From assembly GCA_002701875.1 (NCBI GenBank), contig NZWI01000058.1:1-12869 (forward strand): 12,869 nt of DNA. The letters are read 5' to 3'. Numbering within the stretch: the first letter of the stretch is position 1; the number at the start of each line of letters is the position of its first letter. A program made the translations under genes and the position numbers. The notes beneath the pieces were generated by a model, which saw only the letters and a program-made list of their open reading frames with translations, was not told where the DNA came from and ran no database searches. This DNA is from Fidelibacterota bacterium. Lineage in GTDB: Bacteria; Fidelibacterota; Marinisomatia; Marinisomatales; TCS55. This document shows positions 9,572-12,869 of the stretch, piece by piece.

Positions 9572-9725
9572 TAATTAACATACCTTAAATCAAATATTTT
9601 ATTATTTATAGTTTTGCGAATAAGAATTTACTTATCTGAATAAAATGAAACCAACGTATTGTGTGTGTTTTTTGTAGATACCCAGAACCACTTATTTACC
9701 TCATTATAAAGCTTTAAATTTATAT
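9572..9725. promoter_or_regulatory. Divergent promoter region between korA and selD
   Basis: Both flanking genes start outward, so promoters for the korAB-fumC unit and for selD should lie in these 154 AT-rich bases. No convincing pair of -35/-10 boxes stands out. TATAAA near 9706 has no good -35 partner for selD. A small inverted repeat ATAAG/CTTAT (9620-9635) is the only symmetrical element seen and is too short to interpret. Confidence 0.4.
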
Positions 9726-10775
9726 ATGACAAAATTTGATAAAATTAAACTAACTCAATTTTCTCATGGATCTGGATGAGCATGCAAAATTGGTCCTGAA
9801 GACCTTGCTCAGGTACTGAGCAATATTAATTCAAAATACCAAGATAATGTTATAGTCGGGTTTAATGAATCTGACGATGCAGCTGTAGTTTCTTTCAGTG
9901 ATGATAAACTTTTAGTTCAGAGTGTAGATTTTTTCACACCCATTGTTGATGACCCTTATCAATTTGGACAAATTGCTGCTGCTAATGCTTTATCTGATAT
10001 TTACGCCATGGGTGCAAAACCTTTATTCGCATTAAATATCGTTGGATTCCCAATCAATGAATTACCAAAAGAAATTTTATCAGAGATTCTTAAAGGAGGG
10101 TCAGATAAAACTCAGGAAGCGGGCATACCCATAGTTGGAGGTCATTCAATTGATGATAAAGAACCTAAATATGGTTTAGTCGTTAGTGGTGAAGTAAAAA
10201 AAACAAGATTAATTAAAAATTCTGAAGCAAAAGAAGGTGATGTATTAGTCCTTACAAAACCATTAGGCACTGGCATTATTTCCACAGCAATTAAAAATGA
10301 TAATGCTACACAGGCAATGATTAATGAAGCGGTTATTTGCATGAGCACATTGAATGCATTTGCTGGAAAACTAATGAATGAATTTTCAGTTCATGCTGCC
10401 ACAGATATTACTGGATTTGGATTATTAGGTCATCTAAGTGAAATGTGCCAAGCAAGTCAGTTAACAGCAGAAATTAACTATAATAGCATTCCATTATTGA
10501 ATGATGTGCAATCTTTAGCTAAAAGCGGCAATATATCGAGTGGGACTAAACGTAACTTGGATTATGCTACTCAGTTCACATCATTTAACAAAACAATGCA
10601 TATGGAAGAAAAACTAATGATTGCAGATGCCCAAACATCTGGAGGATTATTAGTTGCCATGCCTGAAGAAGAAGCTGATGAATATGCAAAGAAGTGCGCT
10701 GAAGAGACAGGACTCAATGCAAAACAAATCGGTTTTCTTACCACATTAAAAGAGAATAGAATTATAATCAATTAA
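9726..10775 (+). CDS. selD: Selenide, water dikinase (selenophosphate synthetase), itself a selenoprotein with Sec at codon 18 (TGA)
   Basis: Makes selenophosphate from selenide and ATP, the selenium donor for selenocysteine and selenouridine synthesis. From the ATG at 9726 the frame is open to 10775 apart from one TGA at 9777-9779. Reading that as Sec gives 349 residues, close to the usual SelD length, and the context LTQFSHGSG-U-ACKIGP matches E. coli LTQYSHGAG-C-GCKISP, so U18 sits on the catalytic Cys. Further support: SDDAAV, VDFFTPIVDDPYQFGQIAAANALSDIYAMGAKP-type sequence spanning 9918-10025 (VDFF, ANALSDIYAMG), IVGGHSIDDKEPKYGL and TDITGFGLLGHL. A hairpin follows the TGA (separate entry). 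A start at 10008 would remove the catalytic loop and is wrong. No Shine-Dalgarno is visible. The host must carry selA, selB and selC, none of which is in this window. Confidence 0.95.
9777..9821 (+). promoter_or_regulatory. Putative bacterial SECIS element of selD, with two alternative folds
   Basis: Bacterial Sec insertion needs a hairpin right after UGA for SelB binding. Fold A: TGAGCA (9777-9782) pairs with TGCTCA (9806-9811), and above a lopsided internal loop GGTC (9792-9795) pairs with GACC (9801-9804) around CTGAA; the apical loop begins 16 bases after the TGA, much as in E. coli fdhF. Fold B: GCTCAG (9807-9812) pairs with CTGAGC (9816-9821) around GTA, 33 bases after the TGA. The two share bases and exclude each other. 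Position supports A; the longer unbroken stem and a G opening the loop support B. Confidence 0.6.
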
Positions 10776-10890: not shown

Positions 10891-11289
10891 ATGCTTAATA
10901 TTACAAGAAAAGTGGAATATGCATTAATTGCGTTACGCCATATGCAGTCAAAGAGTGATAACACACTAACAAGCGCTAATGAAGTTGCTAAGCAATATGG
11001 TGTACCTAGAGAGTTACTTGCAAAAACTCTGCAGCAAATGGCTCATCATAATATTCTTGAAGCAGTTCAAGGCCCCACTGGAGGATATAAGATTGTTGCT
11101 GAGTTAGACCAAATTTCATTAAAAGATTTTTTCGAAAAACTTGAAGGTCCATTGGGTATGATGGATTGCTATTTTGATTCAGACTGCGTACAGATTGCCA
11201 ATTGCAATATCAGGGTACCTATTCAGCGAATTAATAATAATATGAGAGATATGTTTTCTCAGATGACACTTCAAGAGGTTACACAATAA
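10891..11289 (+). CDS. Rrf2-family transcriptional regulator, IscR-like, probable Fe-S sensor of the suf operon
   Basis: The 132-residue protein has the Rrf2 layout: an N-terminal winged helix-turn-helix (about 1-70; ITRKVEYALIAL, VAKQYGVPRELLAKTLQQM as recognition region, GPTGGYKI as wing), a linking helix, and the cysteine trio C93, C99, C105 with five residues between each. This is exactly the spacing of IscR C92/C98/C104, so an oxygen-sensitive [2Fe-2S] cluster is likely. The His ligand of IscR three residues after the last Cys is replaced (R108), so the fourth ligand must differ. It heads the suf genes and its stop overlaps the sufT start by one base (TAATG), which fits a regulator of Fe-S assembly acting on its own operon. 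The start has a strong AAGGAAA site inside a palindrome. Whether it should be called iscR or sufR is uncertain. Confidence 0.9.
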   Translation: MLNITRKVEYALIALRHMQSKSDNTLTSANEVAKQYGVPRELLAKTLQQMAHHNILEAVQGPTGGYKIVAELDQISLKDFFEKLEGPLGMMDCYFDSDCVQIANCNIRVPIQRINNNMRDMFSQMTLQEVTQ

Positions 11290-11663
11290 TGGCTCAGGTT
11301 AAAGAAGAACAAATAATTAATATACTAAAGCAATGTTACGATCCTGAATTACCAGTCGACCTTTGGAATTTAGGATTAATTTACAATATCAAAATTCAGG
11401 AAGCTTATGATGAAAGTAAATCTGACGTAAATATTGTTATGTCATTGACTACACCTGGCTGTACTATGGGTGGGCAAATGTCAGATGATATAAAAACTAA
11501 GCTTGAAATGCTTGATGAAGTTAAACAAGCATTTGTAGAGGTGACTTTTGACCCTCCTTGGAATCCAGAAATGATTACTGATGAAGCTAAAGAAAAACTC
11601 GGTCTTAATTTATCTGAGCCAAAGGAGCGAACGGAGCCCAAAATAGAAAAGGAATGGGAATAA
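11289..11663 (+). CDS. sufT: SufT-like DUF59/MIP18-family Fe-S maturation protein
   Basis: Small cytosolic protein of the DUF59 (PaaD/MIP18) family; members encoded with suf genes assist Fe-S cluster maturation or delivery to client proteins. The 124-residue product shows the family hallmarks: YDPELPVDLWNLGLIY (17-32), TTPGCTMGG with the conserved Cys (C58), and VTFDPPWNPEMITDEAKEKLG near residues 98-118. The C-terminal tail is rich in charged residues (EPKERTEPKIEKEWE). The ATG overlaps the regulator stop in TAATG and AGAGG lies upstream, indicating translational coupling; the same arrangement joins it to the next gene. The operon context favours SufT over phenylacetate-pathway PaaD, and no paa genes are visible. 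The exact biochemical role is not defined by sequence. Confidence 0.87.
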   Translation: MAQVKEEQIINILKQCYDPELPVDLWNLGLIYNIKIQEAYDESKSDVNIVMSLTTPGCTMGGQMSDDIKTKLEMLDEVKQAFVEVTFDPPWNPEMITDEAKEKLGLNLSEPKERTEPKIEKEWE

Positions 11664-12025
11664 TGGAAAAACAAAGCAACACAAAAGAAATATTTGATGC
11701 TGGTATAAAAATGACAAAAAAAGCAGCGGAGCGACTTTCTGCTGTCATGGAAGCTGAAGATAAAAAAGGTTTTGGTCTGCGAATGGACGTAACTACTGGT
11801 GGTTGCTCTGGCATGAACTATAATATGTCATTTGAAAAAGAACAAAAAGAATTTGATAAAGTATTTAACAGTCAAGGAATGCAAATATTTTGTGATTTAA
11901 AAAGCTACCTTTATCTTAAAGGAATTGAAATTGATTTCTCAAATGATATCCTTAATGGTGGGTTTCAAATTGTAAACCCAAATGCTGAACGTACCTGCGG
12001 TTGCGGGACTTCTTTCTCAGTTTAG
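11663..12025 (+). CDS. sufA: A-type Fe-S cluster carrier (SufA/IscA/ErpA family)
   Basis: Binds Fe-S clusters and passes them to target enzymes. From the ATG at 11663 the protein has 120 residues and the HesB/IscA fold, with three invariant cysteines: C48 in [12 protein letters not shown], and C112 and C114 in [10 protein letters not shown] close to the C-terminus. [22 protein letters not shown] is the usual strand-turn block before the CGC motif. This start makes a TAATG overlap with sufT and has AAGGA at suitable spacing. An in-frame ATG at 11654 would add three residues but sits directly on that ribosome site. Placement between sufT and sufB favours the name sufA, though erpA- or iscA-type function cannot be excluded. 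Confidence 0.9.
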
Positions 12026-12030
12026 AGTCC

Positions 12031-12869
12031 ATGAAAAAAGATCAGAATATTATTGATTTGGCGATTAGCCAAGAATATAAATACGGCTTTACAACCGATA
12101 TAGAGCAAGAAACAATTCCACCTGGATTGAGTGAAGATGTAATCCGAATTATTTCATCAAAAAAAAATGAACCTGATTGGCTACTAAATTGGAGATTAAA
12201 GGCTTATAAACAATGGTTAAAAATGGATGAGCCTGATTGGTCTAAATTGAATTATACAAACATTGATTTTCAAGCTATTTCATATTACGCAGCCCCAAAA
12301 CAAAAAGAGAAGCTTAAAAGTTTAGATGAGGTCGACCCAGAATTATTAGATACCTATAATAAACTGGGAATCCCATTGGAAGAACAAAAGTTGCTAGCGA
12401 ATGTTGCTGTAGATGCAGTGTTTGATAGTGTTTCAGTAACAACTACTTTCAAGGAAGAGCTTAAAAAACATGGCGTTATTTTTTGTTCTTTTTCTGAAGC
12501 AGTGCACAATCATCCAGATATAATAAAAAAGTATCTAGGCAGTGTTGTTCCAACAACAGATAATTATTTTGCTGCGCTTAATTCAGCAGTATTTAGTGAT
12601 GGTAGTTTCGTTTATATACCAAAAAATGTCAGATGTCCAATGGAGCTATCTACTTATTTCAGAATTAATGCGGCAAAAACAGGCCAATTTGAACGGACCC
12701 TTATTGTTGCTGAAGAAGGAAGTCATGTAAGTTATTTAGAAGGTTGCACTGCGCCAATGAGGGACGAAAATCAACTTCACGCTGCAGTTGTTGAATTAGT
12801 TGCACACAAAAATGCGCAAATAAAATATTCCACTGTCCAAAACTGGTATCCCGGAGACCCTAAAACTGG
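12031..12869 (+). CDS. sufB: SufB, Fe-S cluster assembly scaffold subunit (partial, cut by window end)
   Basis: Core subunit of the SufBC2D scaffold on which Fe-S clusters are built from sulfur delivered by SufS(E/U). The frame opens at the ATG at 12031, five bases after the sufA stop, and stays open for 279 codons to the end of the window, so the C-terminal part (about 40 percent) is missing from view only. Recognisable blocks are [16 protein letters not shown] near the start (about 47-62), [19 protein letters not shown] with the conserved RCPMEL Cys, [23 protein letters not shown], and [35 protein letters not shown] sequence near the end. The second key Cys lies beyond the window. A TAGAG upstream is a weak ribosome site. 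sufC, sufD and sufS are expected next. Confidence 0.95.

Follow-up and report, generated by a model that had tools for sequence, protein, structure and literature searches.

Selenophosphate synthetases with selenocysteine at the active site

Selenophosphate synthetase (SelD; selenide, water dikinase) is known both with a cysteine (Cys) at its active site, as in PDB 3u0o, and with a selenocysteine (Sec) specified by UGA at the same position, as in the Sec-SelD/SPS2 proteins. A SelD that needs Sec for its own synthesis is a long-known and common form, going by excerpts of PMC4561486 and PMC2398784: the former report Sec in 19% of the SelD genes from a reference set of 223 prokaryotes, its position never varying, and according to the latter no selenoproteins are more widespread in marine communities than SelW-like proteins and SelD. 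Here we describe a selD gene with an in-frame TGA in a DNA stretch of 12,869 nucleotides (the window) from contig NZWI01000058.1 of a Fidelibacterota bacterium. We take SAR406 to be the phylum of this organism.

For that phylum, excerpts of PMC5029168 list three SAR406 genomes under orphan SelD and excerpts of PMC8318568 name Marinimicrobia in the context of genome bins; the main text of PMC13188914 makes no mention of Marinimicrobi, Neomarinimicrobiota or SAR406, and within the literature on Marinimicrobia/SAR406 and selenoprotein or selenocysteine no paper is, by title, devoted to the selenoproteins of the phylum. Compared with Sec-SelD/SPS2 the present gene shows no difference in kind: the protein family, a UGA at the position of the active-site Cys, a hairpin downstream resembling a selenocysteine insertion sequence (SECIS) and other Sec machinery are shared, and it adds one more sequence, from a marine lineage that is uncultured. 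Its genome likewise carries three of the kinds recorded among the marine selenoproteins of the Global Ocean Sampling survey, SelD and SelW-like among them, as far as excerpts of that survey go; in contrast to the survey, the gene is here placed in a genome with its context.

The selD frame and its active site

The gene is almost certainly the selenoprotein form of selenophosphate synthetase, with UGA18 decoded as selenocysteine. Its parts are:

9726..10775, + strand: selD (selenide, water dikinase / selenophosphate synthetase), 349 amino acids (aa) with a predicted selenocysteine as residue 18; TIGR00476, NF002098, PDB 3u0o, AIRS and AIRS_C domains
9777..9779, + strand: in-frame TGA, codon 18, predicted selenocysteine; from translation and locus alignment
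10008..10775, + strand: sole conventional open reading frame (ORF) of selD, 255 aa; its product would have no Sec loop and an incomplete AIRS domain; from the ORF list

Translation of 9726-10775 on the + strand gives 349 residues with one TGA (codon 18, SHGSG*ACKI) and a terminal TAA, in keeping with an earlier note, made from the letters alone, that had described a single TGA with the frame intact beyond it. The note had also called only the part from 10008 a conventional ORF and the 94 codons before it SelD. The ORF list indeed gives 10008-10775 (255 aa) alone for selD, and 10008 is the first base of codon 95, which leaves 94 codons upstream; the assignment of these to SelD is borne out by the NCBIfam selD profile TIGR00476, which scores 413.4 bits on the read-through protein (curated equivalog cut-off 125) and aligns residues 8-316 with profile positions 1-310 of 311. 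NF002098 scores 395.9 bits (cut-off 299), and PDB 3u0o ('Selenide, water dikinase') matches with an E-value (E) of 6.4e-82. In the alignment with 3u0o, codon 18 faces the first Cys of SHGAGCGCKI, where the present protein reads SHGSG-U-ACKI. We take 3u0o to be the E. coli enzyme and the aligned residue to be its catalytic Cys17, as the note had it; the SelD motif presumably comprises the active-site Cys or Sec and, shortly after, a catalytic Lys, both present in SHGSG-U-ACKI. Family and active-site motif are thus common to the two proteins, but the Cys of 3u0o is replaced here by a TGA, read as Sec. Both AIRS and AIRS_C domains are found, PF00586 covering residues 50-157, whereas the conventional ORF would begin at residue 95.

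Conservation of the TGA and selection on the upstream codons

Loci of relatives were collected by their similarity at the protein level, residue 18 being left out of the search patterns; the collection comprises the best 80 of 403 relatives in a tblastn search and 20 loci from a genome search, and as these two sets have many contigs in common it represents fewer than 99 independent genes. Among the 99 aligned loci, the present one included, codon 18 is TGA in 98 and TGT in one (L092, Saliterribacillus persicus); a further locus (L094) stops short of this position. Among the best 80 of 403 relatives, the nearest named ones belong to Candidatus Marinimicrobia/Neomarinimicrobiota and the more distant ones to several other phyla. 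In the genome search, which covers 61 genomes of the same genus, family and order (the source genome included), 54 genomes match SelD strongly; 53 of these show one internal TGA in the match, and in the 54th (G023) SelD is truncated before the TGA site. The other seven (G003, G025, G042, G049, G050, G054, G060) have no strong SelD match.

The ratio of the proportions of nonsynonymous and synonymous differences (pN/pS), computed position by position against two same-genus relatives (L027 and L028), is 0.149 and 0.180 for codons 1-94, and higher, 0.313 and 0.284, for codons 95-348. By these ratios codons 1-94, the part before 10008, are under purifying selection and behave as functional coding sequence.

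Some genomes in the set show further patterns. G058 has a TGA copy and, in a 748-aa frame, a second SelD-like match free of internal stops (C50:17712-18722), which may be the Ndh-SelD fusion known from marine samples (PMC2398784). Two TGA-SelD matches lie in one genome bin in G020 (C18, C5), G016 (C14, C31) and G051 (C191, C132), being either paralogues or mixed strains. G003, G042, G049 and G054 have strong selA and selB matches and no strong SelD match, a pattern that reflects either gaps or a divergent source of selenophosphate.

A SECIS-like hairpin after the TGA

9792..9823, + strand: two consecutive hairpins (9792-9804; 9805-9823, apical loop GTA), likely bacterial SECIS; from folding statistics

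The segment of 51 nt that begins with the TGA folds as two successive hairpins with a minimum free energy of -14.4 kcal/mol. Among 1000 synonymous resamplings, 10 attain this energy when the stretch is 48 nt long, 14 when it is 54 nt and 25 when it is 63 nt. The complete stretch is available in 85 sequences including the window, of which 80 are distinct (the window and 79 relatives from more than one phylum). Across these 80 the mean z against synonymous resampling is -1.95, with z below -1 in 70 and p <= 0.05 in 47; six other stretches of selD, for each of which the first 50 sequences provided 46 to 50 controls, have mean z from -0.69 to +0.06. When the window's own structure is imposed on the 80 sequences, the first hairpin is paired in 70-76 and the second in 45-75, and the stem pair formed by columns 33/43, paired in 70/80, occurs as C-G (39), T-A (13) and G-C (13). 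The distance between hairpin and UGA is within the range of bacterial SECIS elements. We hold with moderate confidence that the hairpins are a bacterial SECIS, with putative binding by SelB.

Selenocysteine machinery in the genome

The source assembly (G000) is a draft, 67.6% complete, in 66 contigs. A tRNA-Sec gene (selC) at G000:C12:14560-14651 scores 61.1 bits against a cut-off of 47, and ARAGORN calls it tRNA-SeC with anticodon TCA. Among the 61 genomes the tRNA-Sec model exceeds its cut-off in 48, selB exceeds its curated cut-off in 50 and a strong selA match (E 1.4e-56 or better) is found in 51. Both the tRNA-Sec and the selB searches give some match in 14/14 control genomes, and sub-cut-off matches are therefore uncounted; the selB cut-off itself is passed in 2/14 controls.

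G000:C58:1-561: 3' part of selB, opening contig C58 (L133), directly before mutS; by comparison with SelB of G002

The first 561 bases of C58 encode the counterpart of residues 427-613 of the 616-residue G002 SelB (56% identity, E 6e-69), and the next gene, at C58:572-3151, is mutS (named by eye), as in G002. The gene order there is a 390-aa transporter-like frame, selA, selB and mutS (the outer two named by eye); G001 has frames of 390, 455 and 616 aa arranged likewise, the latter two matching selA and selB, such that in each of the two same-genus genomes selB directly follows selA. By this comparison the source genome has selB, truncated where the contig ends, and both selA and the rest of selB probably fall in an assembly gap. 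The 390-aa frame of G002 has no match in the source assembly, in a search made without a positive control, and this fits a gap around selA. The search for selA, selB and selC proposed in the earlier note thus recovered selC and a contig-cut part of selB, and no selA; the note's counter-argument, absence of all three from a complete genome, is inapplicable because the assembly is 67.6% complete. Elsewhere in the set, the selB match at G006:C28:1278-3094 is broken into two parts and contains a single TGA and a single TAG.

Other selenium genes in the genome

Further selenoproteins, which the note had also suggested looking for, were sought by targeted family searches, and three frames with one in-frame TGA each were recovered:

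G000:C44:8891-9109, - strand: SelW-like (Rdx) frame, CNKU (L123)
G000:C34:422-808, - strand: peroxiredoxin (AhpC/TSA) frame, PGUT (L124)
G000:C6:3954-4316, - strand: peroxiredoxin (AhpC/TSA) frame, PGUT (L125)

Two of the three were checked against Pfam with Cys substituted for U. The genome has five AhpC/TSA matches, two with a TGA and three without. The TGAs of CNKU and PGUT sit in what we take to be motifs of known selenoprotein families, and the three frames are likely further selenoproteins of the organism. A ybbB/mnmH gene (selenouridine synthase) lies on C64 (321.7 bits, cut-off 219.75); a search for the CMD family (AhpD-like) gave no match in this genome.

Weighing the alternatives

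Several results weigh against Sec decoding. As regards the machinery, selA has no match in the 67.6%-complete source assembly, one of 10/61 genomes without a strong selA match; no selB match there is above the curated cut-off; the tRNA-Sec model is below its cut-off in both same-genus genomes, G001 and G002, and is not fully specific, passing in 5/14 controls against 2/14 for SelA; and in G020, at 93% completeness, TGA-SelD and a tRNA-Sec match are accompanied by neither selA nor selB over cut-off. The explanation of the source genome's own selA and selB shortfall by incompleteness and a contig edge is not proved. As regards the gene, the hairpin misses p <= 0.05 in 33/80 sequences, its minimum-energy shape differs in part among relatives, and no Rfam SECIS family is found on 9650-9950 at a lax threshold, which returns three chance-level matches only; pN/pS for codons 1-17 alone is 1.35 and 0.67, on too few sites to weigh.

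One alternative holds that the Sec trait has been lost: selA is gone, the UGA is either suppressed by a near-cognate tRNA or bypassed by a restart of translation at 10008, and selenouridine synthesis is the sole use of SelD. The lack of a selA match in the source assembly and the presence of ybbB are as it would predict, but the 3' end of selB lies at a contig edge followed by the same gene as in G002, in the two same-genus genomes selB follows immediately on selA, the source genome retains tRNA-Sec and three more TGA frames, and a restart at 10008 would yield a protein with an incomplete AIRS domain and no Sec loop; we consider such a loss very unlikely. A pseudogene or sequencing error, with the TGA as a nonsense mutation or miscall in a Cys-SelD, might be suspected from a draft genome of this completeness and contig number and from the truncated ORF of the conventional reading; it is made extremely unlikely by the retention of TGA at codon 18 in 98/99 aligned loci from many separate assemblies, by purifying selection on codons 1-94 and by a frame intact to the final stop. 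Genome-wide reassignment of TGA to a standard amino acid, for which in-frame TGAs in several genes could be cited, has a negligible chance of being right, given that TGA ends the LptF-like gene of the window, that the other eight complete frames and the open SufB frame of the window have no internal TGA, that the TGAs lie in what are presumably motifs of known selenoprotein families, and that tRNA-Sec is present.

Sec decoding, which the earlier note had preferred to a pseudogene, is the best explanation because the TGA is conserved, the upstream codons are under purifying selection, and a SECIS-like hairpin, tRNA-Sec, the selB 3' part and three other TGA frames are all found. From these sequence features we infer both the insertion of Sec at residue 18 and the function of the hairpin.

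A proposed self-dependent route to selenocysteine

In the proposed pathway tRNA-Sec and SelB would decode UGA18 as selenocysteine, directed by the stem-loop just downstream, and Sec18 would stand in for the active-site Cys in the N-terminal loop. SelD would then make selenophosphate from selenide and ATP, an activity established for the family. Selenophosphate would pass to SelA to supply Sec for SelD itself, the SelW-like protein and the two peroxiredoxins, and probably also to YbbB/MnmH, encoded in the same assembly, for tRNA selenouridine. SelD would accordingly require Sec for its own synthesis, as the earlier note pointed out, and inherited enzyme could keep the loop primed. Such a self-dependent Sec-SelD is already well known in bacteria and usual among the relatives, and no new mechanism is involved.

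Genomic neighbourhood

Upstream of selD and divergent from it are genes for the alpha and beta subunits of a 2-oxoacid:acceptor oxidoreductase, a class II fumarase and a PBP1A-family protein, with an LptF-like permease and a pyrimidine-nucleoside phosphorylase farther left. The LptF-like gene, one of ten gene frames listed in the window, is the one that terminates at TGA. Other features of the window are:

10891-12867, same strand as selD: Rrf2-type regulator, SUF-associated protein, IscA/SufA-type protein and SufB, an iron-sulphur cluster assembly group downstream
103-279: tRNA-Pro and tRNA-His

Implications

For annotation, a gene caller that treats TGA solely as a stop records just a 255-aa fragment from 10008. 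An 'absent' selB in a draft genome can likewise be a contig-edge effect, as a curated family search misses the C58 fragment, and absence of selB in drafts is worth checking at contig ends; the genome described here illustrates how gaps in an assembly can give the appearance of orphan SelD. Chances are about even that the near-universal occurrence of Sec-SelD in the order reflects a lineage dependent on a loop in which making Sec requires Sec, with the three SAR406 'orphan SelD' genomes of PMC5029168 being artefacts of incompleteness and not a separate selenium trait. The organism itself is marked as a selenium user, with Sec-SelD, likely SelW-like and peroxiredoxin selenoproteins, and a selenouridine synthase.
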